A DNA stretch of 27,624 bases from a virus. Each line of letters opens with the position of its first letter. The stretch's first letter is position 1. The notes beneath the pieces are model-generated. The model worked only from the letters and a program-made list of their open reading frames with translations. It did not search any database and was not told the origin of the DNA. The stretch covers positions 1 through 27,624 of the IMG/VR virus record IMGVR_UViG_3300027631_000104, one strand, 5' to 3'. This document shows positions 15,258 to 25,630 of this stretch, in pieces. The translations under genes and the position numbers were made by a program.

Positions 15258-15292
15258 AATAATATAACGAAAAACAAACGAAAGGAGTCACT

Positions 15293-15469
15293 ATGACTCA
15301 ACTTACAGAAACACTATATAGCACGATTGTCCACGATTTTCACAATGGTGGAGTAAAGTCCTCTTATGGACTCAATGCCTACACACGCAAGGCTCTATTG
15401 CGTGACCTACTCTCTAGCAAGGCTTGCTATTGTATCGAGTGCGTGTGTGAGGTATCTCACACCGCATAA
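15293..15469 (+). CDS. 58-residue Cys-rich microprotein
   Basis: MTQLTETLYSTIVHDFHNGG...; the C-terminal end has a Cys cluster (CYCIECVC, residues 46-53). The ribosome-binding site is AAAGGAG, 6 nt before ATG. It has its own TGTCAG promoter. The middle (LNAYTRKALLRDLL) is basic and helical. A CRP-like palindrome serving the next promoter overlaps its last codons. The 3' end carries regulatory DNA and coding sequence at once. Function unknown. Confidence 0.65.
   Translation: MTQLTETLYSTIVHDFHNGGVKSSYGLNAYTRKALLRDLLSSKACYCIECVCEVSHTA
15446..15461. promoter_or_regulatory. CRP/GlxR-like site 2 (perfect TGTGA-N6-TCACA)
   Basis: Inside the last codons of the 58-residue ORF. Centre 62.5 bp before the -10 of the promoter at 15500-15521. 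Confidence 0.7.
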
Positions 15470-15521: not shown

Positions 15522-15556
15522 TCCATTATAACCAACTAACGAAAGAAGAACAGACA

Positions 15557-15706
15557 ATGACAATCACATACTCACTATGGGACGGGGCACAATTCCTCGG
15601 TTTCTTTACCGCTACTAGCGCAGATGAAATGCTAAAGGTAGTAAGCGACTTACAAAAGGTTTCTAAAAATGTTGTAGCACACATGCGAAAGGTAGAACAG
15701 AACTAA
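15557..15706 (+). CDS. 49-residue microprotein
   Basis: MTITYSLWDGAQFLGFFTAT... then a helical, basic C-terminus (KVSKNVVAHMRKVEQN). The leader AACGAAAGAAG precedes the ATG. The beta-then-helix pattern and EML/VVSDLQ helix suggest a small folded domain. Its stop overlaps the next ATG by one base (TAATG). First gene of an operon of five; function unknown. Confidence 0.6.
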   Translation: MTITYSLWDGAQFLGFFTATSADEMLKVVSDLQKVSKNVVAHMRKVEQN

Positions 15707-16393: not shown

Positions 16394-16426
16394 GTCTACT
16401 ATAACAACAACGAAAGAAGGTCACTA

Positions 16427-16555
16427 ATGAACCTAGATGAATACAAGGCGCACGTTGAGGCGCAACGCAAGGCTAGCCTACTAAAGGCTATCGCAACAAT
16501 GTCAGAGGCTAATGATAAGATGTCCTCACTATTCAATACTAAGGAGGCTAACTAA
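16427..16555 (+). CDS. 42-residue helical microprotein
   Basis: MNLDEYKAHVEAQRKASLLK..., almost entirely helical and charged. Ribosome-binding site GAAGG with the AACGAAAG leader. A TGTCAG-N10-TAAGAT sequence inside it (16500) is a weak promoter-like match. Stop and next ATG overlap (TAATG). Function unknown. Confidence 0.55.
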   Translation: MNLDEYKAHVEAQRKASLLKAIATMSEANDKMSSLFNTKEAN

Positions 16556-17450: not shown

Positions 17451-17481
17451 TGCGGTATAACCAAACGAAAGGTGACAACTT

Positions 17482-17682
17482 ATGTCAGCAAATGTCTATT
17501 CCGTAGCAAACCTACTTGTAGGAAAAATGTATTACTCTCGCTCAGTATCGGGCGAAATTATTGACGCAGAAAAAACCGATAAGGTATGGTATGCGGATTG
17601 CGATAGTTACCGAATTCAGGTAAGGTCGCAAAATACTTTCAGAGATACTTATCGCTATGTAGCCGTAAAGGTAGGTGAATAA
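17482..17682 (+). CDS. 66-residue hypothetical protein
   Basis: MSANVYSVANLLVGKMYYSR..., beta-rich (VWYADCDSYRIQVR; RDTYRYVAVKVGE), resembling a small SH3-like barrel. The leader AACGAAAGGTG precedes it. It is adjacent to the next ORF with no gap. Function unknown. Confidence 0.6.
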   Translation: MSANVYSVANLLVGKMYYSRSVSGEIIDAEKTDKVWYADCDSYRIQVRSQNTFRDTYRYVAVKVGE

Positions 17683-17853: not shown

Positions 17854-17981
17854 TGAGCGAAATTGCTGGAATGTGGATTTGCGATAAATGCGATACTCTT
17901 GCCATTGTGTCAGTGGAAACTGATACAATACTAGTAACACAATGTAAATGCGTAACCAACGAAAGGGAAACTAATGTATAA
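17853..17981 (+). CDS. 42-residue zinc-ribbon microprotein carrying the next promoter
   Basis: MSEIAGMWICDKCDTLAIVS..., with CDKC (10-13) and CKC (31-33). Its coding sequence contains a full TGTCAG-N10-TACAAT promoter (17908-17929), and its last codons contain the AACGAAAGGG leader and the next start codon (17974, 8-nt overlap). A similar layout (Cys-motif peptide, embedded promoter, then leader) occurs at 22993-23197. Confidence 0.6.
   Translation: MSEIAGMWICDKCDTLAIVSVETDTILVTQCKCVTNERETNV
17908..17929 (+). promoter_or_regulatory. TGTCAG-N10-TACAAT promoter 5 (inside a CDS)
   Basis: Lies wholly within the 42-residue ORF; TGA precedes the -10. It would start RNA near 17936 and supply 17974 and 18177. 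Confidence 0.7.
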
Positions 17982-18587: not shown

Positions 18588-18617
18588 TCCAATATCTACT
18601 AACGAAAGAGGTCCATT

Positions 18618-18827
18618 ATGGAACTATTTACTGTCGCTTGCTTGAACTATGAAATTTGTGGTGCTCAAGAAACTTTTGAAACTGAATCAGAATACGAAAT
18701 TCTTGGTGATGACTATATTTGCGCTGAATGCTATGCGTCTGATGAAATGTCATTCTTTGAAACTATTGGCTGGGCTGATAGCGACGCTCTTGCATCCGCT
18801 GGCCATGGTATGGATGAGGATTACTAA
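18618..18827 (+). CDS. 69-residue acidic putative zinc-ribbon protein
   Basis: MELFTVACLNYEICGAQETF..., with Cys8, Cys14 and CAEC (35-38), giving a C-x5-C...C-x2-C zinc ribbon, and an acidic C-terminus ending GHGMDEDY. Its own promoter and AACGAAAG leader precede it. The Gp88-like gene follows at once with its own promoter. Confidence 0.65.
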   Translation: MELFTVACLNYEICGAQETFETESEYEILGDDYICAECYASDEMSFFETIGWADSDALASAGHGMDEDY

Positions 18828-19881: not shown

Positions 19882-19909
19882 ACTCTTATCCAACAACGAA
19901 AGGTAACAA

Positions 19910-20116
19910 ATGACACCAGTAGAACACTCACTCAAATTCGTAACTGAGTTTGACGAAACACATCCTATCGCTCAAAGATTTTTACAATTAGATGAGCAAT
20001 CACAAATTGCTATGCTAGAGTCAATGCTAAAAGATTTACTAGTATCTGCTATCCAACCAGTAATTGACCACATAAACGAAAATGGCTCTTACGCAATTCT
20101 AAAGGTGGCTAACTAA
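19910..20116 (+). CDS. 68-residue acidic helical protein
   Basis: MTPVEHSLKFVTEFDETHPI..., helical and acidic (QRFLQLDEQSQIAMLESMLK). AACGAAAGG leader 7 nt upstream. One-base overlap with the next gene. No family recognised. Confidence 0.6.
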   Translation: MTPVEHSLKFVTEFDETHPIAQRFLQLDEQSQIAMLESMLKDLLVSAIQPVIDHINENGSYAILKVAN

Positions 20117-20790: not shown

Positions 20791-20828
20791 ACAACTAACA
20801 ACAACCAACCAACGAAAGAGGAAAATAA

Positions 20829-21251
20829 ATGGCTAGAGGAAAAGCAATCTCAGTAAAAATCGCAACACCTAAAATCATCAAGGCACTAGAAACTAAGTTA
20901 GCACAACTAAACAAAGACTATGCCTCACAAGAAGCAAATGAAGCAAAGTATCAGAAGGCTTACAAGGCGTGGCAAAAAGAAATTGGTAAGTGGGCTATTG
21001 CTAATTTCTCAAAGGCAGAGAACCTTCGCACAAACTATCGCTCTTGGAACAAGACTCTCAATGTTGATTTTGACATCATCACAGAGGAAAGTTCTTTCCC
21101 AGTAGAACCTGAAAAGGACTACGAGGTAATTCATCAGCACTCTTATCGTGAGATGAAGCAGGAAATCGAAAACGCAATTCGTATCCTAAAAATGACAGAT
21201 GAGGAAACTGTAAATACTAGCACATACAATGCGGTTGCTCAGTATCTCTAA
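20829..21251 (+). CDS. 140-residue coiled-coil hypothetical protein
   Basis: MARGKAISVKIATPKIIKAL..., a long charged coiled coil (ETKLAQLNKDYASQEANEAK YQKAYKAW) with a Trp-rich middle and an acidic end. Ribosome-binding site AGAGG. The pattern ATPKIIKALE.KL resembles small phage proteins of unknown function. The stop leads into a conserved 3' element. No enzymatic motif. Confidence 0.65.
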   Translation: MARGKAISVKIATPKIIKALETKLAQLNKDYASQEANEAKYQKAYKAWQKEIGKWAIANFSKAENLRTNYRSWNKTLNVDFDIITEESSFPVEPEKDYEVIHQHSYREMKQEIENAIRILKMTDEETVNTSTYNAVAQYL

Positions 21252-21299
21252 ATAAACCAACGACCTGAGTAAGTCGCCAAACTGCTCTCCCTTCGGGGA
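21248..21299 (+). other. Conserved 3' RNA element (CTGAGTAA stem-loop), copy 1
   Basis: After the stop: CTAAATAAA, stem CGAC/GTCG around CTGAGTAA (21261-21276), CC, then AAACTGCTC, and a TCCC-TTCG-GGGA hairpin (21288-21299). The second copy at 22762-22800 has a different stem (AATC/GATT) and the same loop. Confidence 0.6.
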
Positions 21300-21322: not shown

Positions 21323-21583
21323 ATGGCAAATCGTTTCAGAGTAGAAATCTACGATGCTAACAAAGCAAATGACATCACGATTTATTCGGATCAAGGTGTT
21401 GATAAAGAGTATCTAACTGAATTAGTATTCAGTAACATCAGAAACTTTAGCGGAAAAATAAATGCTTATGTTTTTGATAACGTAAAGAAAAAGAAAACAA
21501 CTGCGATGTTTCTTGATGAGAGCACAGTTGAATTTAATAAAAATCTAATTAGCAATGCTAAAAAGGTAGAGGTGGGGATTTAA
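21323..21583 (+). CDS. 86-residue hypothetical protein
   Basis: MANRFRVEIYDANKANDITI..., beta-alpha-beta start with a basic stretch (VKKKKTTAMF) and a helical end. The ribosome-binding site is AAAGG with AACAAAGG instead of the usual leader. No own TGTCAG promoter; it is likely read from promoter 10. Function unknown. Confidence 0.6.
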   Translation: MANRFRVEIYDANKANDITIYSDQGVDKEYLTELVFSNIRNFSGKINAYVFDNVKKKKTTAMFLDESTVEFNKNLISNAKKVEVGI

Positions 21584-21731: not shown

Positions 21732-21760
21732 TACAACTAATCAAACGAAAGGAAATAAAA

Positions 21761-22765
21761 ATGGCTCATAATCTAGAAATGGAAAACGGCGAAGTTGCTT
21801 TTGCTCTTCGTGGTGCTCCTGCTTGGCACAATCTAGCAAATCGCATCTTTACACAAGATGAGGAAGTTACAACTGCAACAATGCTTGAAGAGGCAAAGTT
21901 AGCAAATTGGAATGTTCGTCTATCTCCAATCACCGAGCACATTCCAGAATCTTGGAATGATGTTTCAAGCGCATCTCTTGTCATTCGTGACAATCCATTC
22001 AAAAAGGGCGTAGATGTTCTCGCCACTGTTGGTAAGCGATACAAGCCAGTTCAAAATGAAGAACTGTTTGCGTTTGCTGATGCTATTCACGATGCTAACG
22101 CTGATTGCCGTTGGGAATCTGCTGGCTCATTGAAAAAGGGTAAAGTAGTTTTCGGAACTGTAGACATTCCCCGCACAATGGTTCTTGACCCACAAGGTGC
22201 CAATGATGAAACTAAACTCTATCTAATTGTTTGGACATCTCACGATGGTTCTGTTGCTGTTCAGGCAGCCGTTACACCTGTTCGTGTTGTATGCCAAAAC
22301 ACACTAAATCTTGCGATGCGTAATGCTAAGCAATCATTCAAGATTCGTCACACACAATCTGTTGAAGGTCGTATTCAAGTTGCTCGTGAAACTCTTGGAA
22401 TGGCTCTTGGTTATTTTGATGAGTTTGAAGTTGAGGCTAAGGCTCTATACGCTCAAGCAATTACCGATTCAGAATTTTCTAAATTGGTTCAATCAATTTA
22501 CCCAAAGCCAGAAAAAGATGCTAAGGGCGCAATCAAGAAATGGGAAAACAAAATTGTTCTCCTTGATGAGTTGTATCATAACTCACCAACTAACGCTACA
22601 ATCAAGGGAACAAAGTGGGGTGCGTTCAACGCACTTACTGAGCGCCTTGATTATTATCGTTCAGGTCGTGGCAACGGCGAAACTCTTATGGCTGGCGCAT
22701 CAGGGTTTGACCCAGTTCTAACTGCTGAGAAAAACAAAATCAAGAAATTGGTTTCTGCTTTCTAA
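21761..22765 (+). CDS. DUF932 phage/plasmid-like protein
   Basis: 334 residues, MAHNLEMENGEVAFALRGAP. The start of the family (GAPAWHNLAN...), KGVDVLATVGKRYKPVQNEE at about 86-105, KGKVVFGTVDIPR, TPVRVVCQNTLNLAM (168-182) and the RHTQSVEGRIQVARETLG segment are typical of the DUF932 (phage/plasmid TIGR03299) family, normal in length. Molecular function is unknown; members are common on phages and plasmids, sometimes near replication or recombination genes. Own promoter, strong leader; a structured 3' element and tRNA-Asp follow. Confidence 0.9.
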   Translation: MAHNLEMENGEVAFALRGAPAWHNLANRIFTQDEEVTTATMLEEAKLANWNVRLSPITEHIPESWNDVSSASLVIRDNPFKKGVDVLATVGKRYKPVQNEELFAFADAIHDANADCRWESAGSLKKGKVVFGTVDIPRTMVLDPQGANDETKLYLIVWTSHDGSVAVQAAVTPVRVVCQNTLNLAMRNAKQSFKIRHTQSVEGRIQVARETLGMALGYFDEFEVEAKALYAQAITDSEFSKLVQSIYPKPEKDAKGAIKKWENKIVLLDELYHNSPTNATIKGTKWGAFNALTERLDYYRSGRGNGETLMAGASGFDPVLTAEKNKIKKLVSAF

Positions 22766-22800
22766 ATAAATAAAATCCTGAGTAAGATTCTAAACTGCTC
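22762..22800 (+). other. Conserved 3' RNA element (CTGAGTAA stem-loop), copy 2
   Basis: CTAAATAAA, stem AATC/GATT around CTGAGTAA (22774-22789), CT, then AAACTGCTC, followed by ACAATTTTTTTC. Stem bases differ from copy 1 but still pair, a covariation sign of RNA structure. Confidence 0.6.
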
Positions 22801-22814
22801 ACAATTTTTTTCTT

Positions 22815-22888
22815 GGTCTGTTAGCTCAGTTGGTTAGAGCGCTACCCTGTCACGGTAGAGGTCGACGGTTCAAGTCCGTTACAGATCG
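22815..22888 (+). tRNA. tRNA-Asp (anticodon GUC)
   Basis: Complete cloverleaf: acceptor GGTCTGT/ACAGATC (one G-U), D arm GCTC/GAGC, anticodon stem CTACC/GGTAG with loop CTGTCAC (anticodon GTC), T arm GACGG-TTCAAGT-CCGTT. Discriminator G as expected for Asp; CCA is not encoded (GCA follows). It sits between the DUF932 gene and promoter 12 on the plus strand. Confidence 0.93.
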
Positions 22889-22963: not shown

Positions 22964-22985
22964 TGTCAGTGGGCTCGTGTATAAT
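22964..22985 (+). promoter_or_regulatory. TGTCAG-N10-TATAAT promoter 12 (leaderless type)
   Basis: Perfect -10, ending 7 nt before ATG 22993 (TATAAT-N7-ATG), without a ribosome-binding site. Same layout as promoter 7. Confidence 0.75.
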
Positions 22986-22992
22986 TCTCATC

Positions 22993-23649
22993 ATGACCAA
23001 CGAACTAGTATCAAGTAAATATACATTTGTCTGTGACCCAGATGAATGTGACTGCCTAATTGAATTAACATCATCTGACGGGTTTGGATTCCCATCAGGT
23101 GTGACAGAACTCACATGCCCGTGTGGTCGTAAGACCACCTTGGTGTCAGTGGTCAATGCTACAATTGCTCCTATAACCCAAACGAAAGAGGAAAAAATGG
23201 AACCAACAACAACACCAATCCCTGAGTCATATAACTCTAATCTATTGGTAACCTACAAAGTTATCCGTGGATTCTCAGATGCAGAATATGCAACTGACAA
23301 GATTACAAGTCTTGAGTGGGACCTACACAATGGACGCCAATCTCAGAAGACTGTCGGCGTTCTAAATAGCAAGATTGATTCTGCTAAAGAAATTATCTGC
23401 GAAGCATATGCAGACTCACAAGACCAAGACACATTGCGTGAAATCGCTGAGGCGCTTGGTATTGAACTTATCAAAGAAGTTGAATGGTCTGCATCTATTG
23501 AAGTTAGCGGAACATATTCATATAACATTCTTGAAAACGATTATGACTTAGACCTTGAGTCAGAAATTACAGATGCAATCTTTGCTGATTCACATAACGG
23601 TAACATTGAAATCAATGACCAAGAAGTATGTAATGTGCGTGAGAACTAA
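22993..23649 (+). CDS. Zinc-finger-led protein with nested downstream start
   Basis: 218 residues from ATG 22993, which is leaderless downstream of promoter 12; an upstream in-frame ATG at 22963 overlaps the TGTCAG box. Residues 1-60 hold Cys14, CDC (19-21) and CPCG, a probable zinc ribbon. Inside the frame lie a second promoter (23144-23165), an AACGAAAGAGG leader and ATG 23197, giving a 150-residue short form starting MEPTTTPIPESYNSN. The C-terminal part is acidic and helical (EAYADSQDQDTLREIAEALG). It could be one gene with two products or a recent fusion of two genes by loss of a stop. Function unknown. Confidence 0.6.
   Translation: MTNELVSSKYTFVCDPDECDCLIELTSSDGFGFPSGVTELTCPCGRKTTLVSVVNATIAPITQTKEEKMEPTTTPIPESYNSNLLVTYKVIRGFSDAEYATDKITSLEWDLHNGRQSQKTVGVLNSKIDSAKEIICEAYADSQDQDTLREIAEALGIELIKEVEWSASIEVSGTYSYNILENDYDLDLESEITDAIFADSHNGNIEINDQEVCNVREN
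23100..23115. promoter_or_regulatory. CRP/GlxR-like site 10 (perfect TGTGA-N6-TCACA, inside CDS)
   Basis: Overlaps codons of the zinc-ribbon part. Centre 52.5 bp before the -10 at 23160. Confidence 0.65.
23144..23165 (+). promoter_or_regulatory. TGTCAG-N10-TACAAT promoter 13 (inside CDS)
   Basis: TGC precedes the -10; AACGAAAGAGG and ATG 23197 follow. It would express the short form without the zinc ribbon. Confidence 0.75.
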
Positions 23650-24193: not shown

Positions 24194-24562
24194 ATGGGCG
24201 ACAGAGCAAACTTTGGATTCAGAGATTCCAAGGAAAATATTGTATTTCTATACGGCCACTGGGCTGGACATCGCATGCTAGAACAATTGGCGGATGCTGT
24301 TGCTGCAGCAGAGCCAAGGTGGCAGGATGAATCATATGCAACACGTATTGCTATTTCTAATTTAATTAAAGATGAGTGGGCTAGCGAAACAGGTTGGGGC
24401 ATATACGTAAATCAACTTGGGGACAATGAGCACAAGGTCCCTATTATTGATTGGAAGAATAAAACGTTTACATTAATGGAAGAAGACCTAGAAACTGTAG
24501 TGTTTAGTACGAGCCTTGAGGCATTTGTTGCTAAGTATTCCAGTCAACTAAGTATGGTATAA
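24194..24562 (+). CDS. Conserved actinophage protein (MGDRANFGFR family)
   Basis: 122 residues, MGDRANFGFRDSKENIVFLYGHWAGH... The motifs LYGHWAGH, RWQDESYATRIAISNLI and ETGWGIYVNQLGDNEHKVPI are widely conserved in phages of actinobacteria; the function is unknown. Beta-alpha mixed fold; no catalytic motif can be named. The AAAGG of the preceding gene's last codons is the ribosome-binding site. An extended -10 promoter of the downstream ncRNA overlaps its 3' end. Confidence 0.75.
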   Translation: MGDRANFGFRDSKENIVFLYGHWAGHRMLEQLADAVAAAEPRWQDESYATRIAISNLIKDEWASETGWGIYVNQLGDNEHKVPIIDWKNKTFTLMEEDLETVVFSTSLEAFVAKYSSQLSMV

Positions 24563-24563
24563 T
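24555..24563 (+). promoter_or_regulatory. Extended -10 promoter of a putative ncRNA
   Basis: TGGTATAAT (perfect extended -10) at the end of the 122-residue gene; no clear -35. Expected start at about 24570. Confidence 0.55.
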
Positions 24564-24569
24564 TAATCT

Positions 24570-24720
24570 AGGACTTTGGTCCTGGTTTTAATACAGAAAT
24601 GAAAATGGTGCGTCTAACTAGTCTACGGGCCAGGCGCTAAGTAAAGCGGTTTATTTCTTTCGTTGGAAATCAGCAGCCATATTCATTAACCCCCCAGCTT
24701 TTGTTGGGGGGTATTTTTTT
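24570..24720 (+). ncRNA. Putative ~150-nt phage ncRNA with 5' hairpin and terminator
   Basis: Starts 7 nt after the extended -10, exactly at the hairpin AGGAC-TTTG-GTCCT, and ends at the strong terminator 24689-24720. Internal segment GCGCTAAGTAAAGCGG resembles the CTGAGTAA elements. The only short frame inside (ATG 24600, 13 codons) lacks a ribosome-binding site, so coding is unlikely. It could alternatively be the 3' UTR of the operon ending at 24562. Confidence 0.55.
24689..24720 (+). terminator. Strong intrinsic terminator
   Basis: ACCCCCCA/TGGGGGGT 8-bp stem, 8-nt loop, followed by ATTTTTTT. The strongest terminator seen in the right arm; it closes the operon/ncRNA and insulates the Api92-like gene. 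Confidence 0.9.
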
Positions 24721-24782
24721 GCCCGCAAGGGCGAGGGTAACATATCTCTTTTACGAGGTCAATAGCAAAACTCCTGAAAATT
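24721..24782. repeat. Degenerate composite repeat, copy F
   Basis: GCCCGCAAGGGCGAGGGTAA, then TTTTACGAGGTC and CTCCTGAAAATT. It keeps the GCCCGCAA, TTTACGAG and CCTGAAA blocks seen in copies A-E, without a GGCGTGTCG copy or DnaA box. Confidence 0.55.
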
Positions 24783-24843: not shown

Positions 24844-24865
24844 TGTCAGTGGTCCATTGTATAAT
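24844..24865 (+). promoter_or_regulatory. TGTCAG-N10-TATAAT promoter 14
   Basis: Perfect -10. Drives the Api92-like gene through an AACGAAAGGA leader. Confidence 0.8.
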
Positions 24866-24892
24866 TAGAACATATCAACGAAAGGATATAAT

Positions 24893-25630
24893 ATGCCAAA
24901 TTGGGTGTATAACGGTTTAACAATTGAAGGTAATCCTGAGCAAGTAAAGGCTTTAATCGAGCAGATGAATAAGCCATTTGTTTATTCTATTACTGCAGTA
25001 GGTGATTTAGCATATGATGTTAAGCAGACTAAGTATGTTAATCCTATCTTTGCTTTTCATAATATCTATAACTATAGAGATGCTGGTATTACTGATGAGG
25101 TATATCATGGACAACCGCCTCGTTCTGATGTGACAATGAAAGAATGGTTTAAGTTTGCTACCAATGATTGGTACAACTTTAATGTCCGTGAATGGGGAAC
25201 CAAATGGGATGTAGCCGTATCTGAAGATAATAAATATCCTGATACTACTATTGAAGAGGCAGAGAATGGCGAGAACTATGTAGTCCATTATAACTTTAAT
25301 ACTGCTTGGTCCCGACCTATGCCTGCCCTCCAAAAATTATCTGCACAATACCCAACATTACTCTTTACTTTATCATATGAGGAAGAGACAGGTTGGGGTG
25401 GGGAATTAGAAATTCTCCGTGGTGTAGTTATATCAGAATCAGAATATGACAATATGTGTCGTGACTGTGATGCAACAGACCAAATGGAATACTGCGAAAA
25501 TGAATGTGGCGAAATCTGTGGCAACTGCCATTGGCTTGGCGAGGCAGACCTAGAGGCTGTAGCAAAATGTCAGTCCCATAGTATATACTTAGCAACTAAA
25601 GTACCCGAATATAGAAAGGTGGAATCGTGA
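24893..25630 (+). CDS. Api92-like (DUF1281-type) phage protein
   Basis: 245 residues. MPNWVYNGLTIEGNPEQVKA is the typical start of Api92-like ferredoxin-fold proteins of phages and mobile elements, with FNTAWSRPMPALQKLSAQYP (about 140-160) and a YEEETGWGGE segment (164-173) as usual. The C-terminal ~60 residues carry an extra Cys-rich zinc finger (CRDC, CENEC, CGNC; about residues 185-210). Promoter 15 lies within its last codons. Function of the family is unknown. Confidence 0.8.
   Translation: MPNWVYNGLTIEGNPEQVKALIEQMNKPFVYSITAVGDLAYDVKQTKYVNPIFAFHNIYNYRDAGITDEVYHGQPPRSDVTMKEWFKFATNDWYNFNVREWGTKWDVAVSEDNKYPDTTIEEAENGENYVVHYNFNTAWSRPMPALQKLSAQYPTLLFTLSYEEETGWGGELEILRGVVISESEYDNMCRDCDATDQMEYCENECGEICGNCHWLGEADLEAVAKCQSHSIYLATKVPEYRKVES
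25568..25589 (+). promoter_or_regulatory. TGTCAG-N10-TATACT promoter 15 (inside CDS)
   Basis: Lies in the last codons of the Api92-like gene; AGAAAGGTGG and GTG 25627 follow. No CRP-like site is seen upstream. Confidence 0.65.

Follow-up and report, generated by a model that had tools for sequence, protein, structure and literature searches.

A putative small RNA gene of freshwater phages with an antisense match to the ribosome-binding motif of phage genes

The segment that follows a 122-aa gene in this phage DNA raises the question of whether it encodes an RNA of its own and, if so, what that RNA would act upon. The window, which is the whole stretch of 27,624 nucleotides that was analysed, is one IMG/VR virus record (IMGVR_UViG_3300027631_000104). 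The initial annotation had proposed a ncRNA gene at positions 24555–24720 and, judged from sequence alone, the segment is indeed a gene for a structured RNA, one that had not been catalogued before. The RNA-bearing phages are a family of freshwater phages; the ribonucleotide reductase predicted in the window is closest to those of Streptomyces phages (~66% identity), from which we infer that the host is probably an actinobacterium.

The putative RNA gene and its distribution

The predicted parts of the gene are listed here, with the elements of the core named P1 to P3.

24555–24563, + strand: promoter of the RNA gene, an extended -10 TGGTATAAT; relatives conserve its TATAAT with TG
24570–24583, + strand: 5' hairpin where the transcript is predicted to begin, AGGAC-TTTG-GTCCT; another clade has one of AGGCC..GGCCT type, and clades with the promoter directly next to the core have none
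24606–24679, + strand: structured core, a three-way junction
24606–24609 with 24676–24679, + strand: P1, GGU/GCC
24610–24615 with 24632–24637, + strand: P2, GCNNCU/AGNNGY; its exchanges include C-G to G-C and C-G to A-U
24621–24623 with 24628–24630, + strand: P2b, variable
24638–24645, + strand: junction UAAGUAAA, consensus UAARUAAN
24646–24674, + strand: P3 arm, closed by GC/GC, with CUUUCGUUGG as its tip
24657–24666, + strand: P3 tip CUUUCGUUGG, nearly invariant, the proposed antisense seed for CCAACGAAAG
24689–24720, + strand: intrinsic terminator, a 10-pair stem (24689–24712, seven pairs G-C) followed by a T-run

The extended -10, the AGGAC-TTTG-GTCCT hairpin and the C/G-rich terminator with its Ts, all claimed in the initial annotation, can each be located and are conserved among relatives. 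The ncRNA gene itself is supported by a promoter of its own placed to match the structure, by covarying helices, by the terminator and by the presence of one copy per genome, with expression remaining inferred. The stop codon that ends the 122-aa ORF (24194–24562) falls within the promoter (ATG GTA TAA, ending at 24562), and the 152-nt segment has a folding energy of -51.6 kcal/mol (z = -3.74), which none of 200 shuffles equalled.

The distance between promoter and core differs among clades. In that of the window, TATAAT with TG lies ~42 nt 5' of the core with the hairpin in between, and in other clades the -10 (TATAAT) is only 8–11 nt 5' of the core, so that transcription would start at P1; the hairpin of the clades with a distant promoter is a covarying one (AGGAC..GTCCT vs AGGCC..GGCCT). 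A promoter-like score of 10 or more is reached by 54% of loci and by 5% of shuffled sequences, with some loci having only a weak match. Within the loop class of the window, every one of the 47 distinct loci has the terminator 3' of the element; over all classes the count is 82 of 108, leaving 26 (about a quarter) without an evident one, and one loop class has none evident in 22 of its 49 distinct loci. Beyond the terminator, at 24721–24770 in the window and at the same place in relatives, there is a conserved stretch, GCCCGCAAAA..(T)GAGGGTA..ATAT..TTTTACG..GTCAATA, which is retained even where the terminator is missing.

A covariance model built from an alignment of 42 distinct cores has only one strong match in the window (24599–24686, 71.7 bits; next best 17.0). 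Each of the 21 long phage records searched (97–117 kb) likewise has one strong copy, with no additional copy above 16.8 bits in these records. The element is also present in many further IMG/VR contigs: 49 are matched by a core 23-mer, 67 by a core pattern and at least 119 by a looser pattern, and of 65 related loci found through the neighbouring 122-aa protein nearly all have the element directly 3' of that gene. Membership of a known RNA family was rejected, as among the 4227 Rfam models the element reaches no family's gathering threshold (only tRNAs do); sub-threshold Rfam scans of the element in three sources gave weak matches only. A host copy or host origin was rejected on the GTDB genomes, where two core-motif patterns returned 0 and 6 stretches, all six at or below 18.1 bits and none credible. 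No annotated phage relative was found through DNA similarity over the region, the element giving only a chance-level match. A small peptide encoded within the RNA was also set aside, since by eye the short-form relatives do not retain the ATG-initiated frames seen in the window.

A covarying core with a variable arm

The core pairs in 92.8% of alignment cells compared with 82.3% in shuffles, contains 88 double-change cells compared with 27.3, and has a covariation score of 0.299 compared with 0.112; no value was reached in any of 500 shuffles, and the covariation signal is destroyed when the partner is slid by one column. Within the fold the P3 tip is partly closed by three weak pairs. By eye, columns 50 and 54 of the alignment also covary across a UAA triloop (C50-G54 in CUAAG, U50-A54 in UUAAA), the exceptions being a few members with U and C; this pair is perhaps part of a base triple with G12.

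Five divergent contigs (L307–L311) retain the core but have a P3 arm that is different or short and lack the antisense tip; in four of the five the core sits behind TTGACA-18-TAAAAT. One of these is placed as follows.

L310, 6225–6284: divergent RNA member whose P3 arm is short or different; it follows the Api92-like gene and does not precede it

In these five contigs and in L130 the RNA is found at another genomic place with its own promoter. The arm differences suggest that P3 can be swapped while the core is conserved. Because members without the loop still have the core, it must have a role besides antisense pairing, perhaps in binding a protein or ligand. For L309, with P3 loop CCUCGAAAA, no matching recurrent ribosome-site motif is evident in its 21-kb contig.

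The window contains a further kind of conserved structure, the CTGAGTAA elements at 21265 and 22778 (full elements 21253–21297 and 22766–22810), which precede an 86-aa ORF at 21323 and a tRNA-Asp at 22815. Each has a hairpin NNNN-CCTGAGTAAG-NNNN followed by AAACTGCTC, with 31 distinct versions in related loci showing compensatory stem changes, and constitutes a second conserved RNA element with a possible GAG-CUC pseudoknot. The likeness of a piece of the RNA gene, GCGCTAAGTAAAGCGG, to these elements that had been suggested earlier did not hold up: GCGCTAAGTAAAGCGG is present and its resemblance is superficial. Kinship was rejected because the covariance model has no match at the elements and their conserved hairpin is a different one.

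Antisense match to a shared ribosome-binding motif

The P3 tip CUUUCGUUGG is a perfect reverse complement of CCAACGAAAG, and the commonest initiation-region 8-mer of the rightward genes in the window is AACGAAAG. Eleven copies of it are found on the + strand, each within ~16 nt upstream of an ATG, and they define the predicted targets.

24877–24884, + strand: AACGAAAG before the Api92-like ORF 24893–25630
23181–23188, + strand: AACGAAAG before the start at 23197
21744–21751, + strand: AACGAAAG before the DUF932 gene at 21761
20811–20818, + strand: AACGAAAG, within a full CCAACGAAAG, before the 140-aa gene at 20829; ddG -12.0
19895–19902, + strand: AACGAAAG before the gene at 19910
18601–18608, + strand: AACGAAAG before the gene at 18618
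17958–17965, + strand: AACGAAAG, within a full CCAACGAAAG, before the gene at 17974; ddG -10.0
17464–17471, + strand: AACGAAAG before the ATG at 17482
16409–16416, + strand: AACGAAAG before the gene at 16427
15538–15545, + strand: AACGAAAG before the gene at 15557
15277–15284, + strand: AACGAAAG before the gene at 15293

Besides the DUF932 and Api92-like genes, the predicted targets include several small ORFs. Counting both strands of the window there are 14 copies where 0.77 are expected, and none of 100 shuffles had as many. When the 8-mers of the RNA are ranked by antisense recurrence on the + strand, that of the P3 tip stands at 11, the next at 6 and the median at 0. Among related genomes, G005, G014 and G013 carry 14, 11 and 10 copies of AACGAAAG on the RNA strand (11, 7 and 10 of them near an ATG) and only 1–2 on the other, though that strand carries most of the genome. 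AACGAAAG is the top RNA-strand initiation-region 8-mer in most loop-bearing genomes, and of the 640 distinct RNA-strand contexts that the loop-bearing loci provide in total, 618 adjoin an ATG.

Most genes with AACGAAAG have their own TGTCAG-N8-13-TATAAT promoter, and the motif most often starts 14 nt after the -10, which places it inside a short leader. Promoters of this class (e.g. 24845–24865 and 22966–22986) precede most genes of the rightward block, with 14 on the + strand and one on the - strand of the window; the -35-like TGTCAG is too near the -10 for standard sigma-70 spacing.

Several comparisons tie the motif to the loop, and relatives with a loop-less RNA have hardly any copies of it. 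On the RNA strand of loop-bearing genomes, 65 of 112 GAAAG-type Shine-Dalgarno sites are preceded by the trinucleotide AAC. The opposite strand of these genomes, whose genes are translated by the same ribosomes, has AAC at no more than one of 57 such sites, and loop-less relatives have it at about 5 of 71. After promoters of the TGTCAG..TATAAT class, AACGAAAG is found in 70 of 118 cases with the loop and in two of 23 without it, the latter from G028 (RNA not found) and from G024–G027 and G029 (RNA without loop). The P3 loop has the forms UCUUUCGUUGG and UUCCUUUCGUUUG; G022 and G023 carry UUCCUUUCGUUUG, and 14 of their 16 targets read AACGAAAGGAA, extending the match, such that loop form UUCCUUUCGUU accompanies targets AACGAAAGGAA. 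Because the genomes share ancestry, the loop-less, promoter-class and change-in-step comparisons lend support without being independent of one another. Within each genome, the ~10 targets are separate genes.

Interpretation and relation to known systems

The explanation that we favor, with a probability of roughly 0.68, is a stand-alone sRNA of the phage that acts on ~10 phage mRNAs by pairing over their Shine-Dalgarno region, most likely as a repressor. A transcript of ~150 nt, made from its own promoter at the end of the 122-aa gene, would fold into the 5' hairpin, the three-way-junction core and the terminator, and would present the P3 tip as an antisense to CCAACGAAAG, which about ten genes of that strand, each transcribed separately, share as their Shine-Dalgarno region. 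Pairing in trans with the short leaders (CAACGAAAG) would begin at the loop UUCGUU against AACGAA, and the resulting duplex would cover the Shine-Dalgarno sequence and block initiation. Translation of the gene set would most likely be shut down, or else tuned, once the different promoter of the RNA becomes active, the inferred timing resting on the absence of a TGTCAG element from that promoter. The structured RNA gene with its promoter and terminator, the antisense match, the one-strand gene block and the matched change of loop and target are well supported as sequence features; pairing in vivo, repression as its outcome and early-to-late timing are inferred, without expression data. Nested co-folding of the full RNA with its targets gives a mean of -6.0 kcal/mol vs -4.3 with shuffled leaders, and P3 is not used in every case. 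The preference is modest owing to the partial closure of the tip, which a kissing interaction, outside the reach of a nested method, would avoid; we do not take the preference as proof of pairing.

The same RNA and pairing could instead activate or protect, with the leaders stabilised or opened, or with the mRNAs acting as sponges that titrate the RNA. This is unlikely, even though the antisense recurrence, strand limit and loop/target change speak for it equally and the motif lies near the leader 5' end, mostly 14 nt after the -10, where a duplex could protect that end: the antisense covers the GAAAG(G) Shine-Dalgarno itself, a few nt from the ATG, and pairing over a Shine-Dalgarno normally blocks ribosomes, as is established for bacterial sRNAs. 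It is quite unlikely that the stand-alone RNA has another job, such as binding a phage or host protein, and that its match is merely a general anti-Shine-Dalgarno-like loop with no regulated pairing. CUUUC does resemble the 16S anti-Shine-Dalgarno sequence, and loop-less members keep the core, but the match runs beyond the Shine-Dalgarno into AAC/CAAC, which 16S rRNA leaves unexplained, and the motif is confined to one strand despite the same ribosomes and changes with the loop.

An aptamer-like core that is followed, in a conserved arrangement, by a terminator and a gene is also what a riboswitch or attenuator acting in cis from the leader of the downstream Api92-like gene would present. We give this little credence, as that gene has its own promoter-like site 3' of the terminator (TATAAT at 24860–24865), some loci have no terminator, and in L130 and L310 the RNA lies elsewhere, before a different gene and with its own promoter; a riboswitch or attenuator would be expected to stay at one place in the leader of a single regulated gene, which is not the case here. 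Hardly tenable is an effect at the DNA level, with CCAACGAAAG as a protein-binding site upstream of genes that occurs reversed in the RNA gene; the sequence does recur on DNA at a fixed place near starts, but it occupies the Shine-Dalgarno position before the ATG, mostly downstream of the predicted transcription start, and in the RNA gene it forms the tip of a covarying arm.

Repression by antisense pairing can be placed among known systems. GOLLD and ROOL are conserved structured phage ncRNAs from comparative sequence analysis and are several hundred nt long; the element described here is of this general kind, but is shorter and matches no Rfam family. It meets the test of an independent transcript with its own promoter and terminator, insofar as predicted features allow and apart from the loci without an evident terminator, and that of a conserved seed complementary to the initiation regions of mRNAs encoded elsewhere. 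The P1/P7 c4 and P22 sar RNAs block translation initiation by pairing near the ribosome-binding site, with the c4 antisense in loops (PMC12197685). They act on the ant mRNA, whereas this RNA matches about ten unlinked leaders and has a three-way-junction scaffold of its own. VpdS of VP882 and PreS of lambda are trans-acting phage-encoded sRNAs, described as Hfq-bound, of which VpdS affects phage and host mRNAs and PreS targets host dnaN (PMC12197685); unlike these, the predicted targets here are a phage gene set with one common motif. In a limited search of the open-access literature we found no phage sRNA reading a motif common to a phage regulon, the others differing in targets or Hfq dependence. 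We class the trans-acting antisense RNA itself as a known kind, with the scaffold and the shared-motif regulon being new.

The T4 RegA translational repressor acts on about 30 phage mRNAs (PMC3014915). Like the RNA described here, it is a phage factor acting on the initiation regions of many mRNAs of its own phage, but RegA is a protein competing with the ribosome, and here an RNA is predicted to base-pair with a common motif, with repression inferred. Membership of the RegA protein family is not met, the factor being an RNA, and the mode of action alone is compared. We see an even chance that about ten separately transcribed genes with a common promoter class (TGTCAG..TATAAT) and ribosome-binding motif form a regulon whose translation is ended by one structured RNA with a swappable antisense P3 arm, the arm and targets coevolving, as an RNA counterpart of RegA. 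Since loop and targets change together between clades, the system is directly testable with reporters. The RNA represents a previously uncatalogued structured family present in many environmental phage contigs; if the proposed pairing is true, one small RNA would control a set of the phage's own genes post-transcriptionally through a common ribosome-binding motif, an RNA solution to a job done in T4 by a protein.
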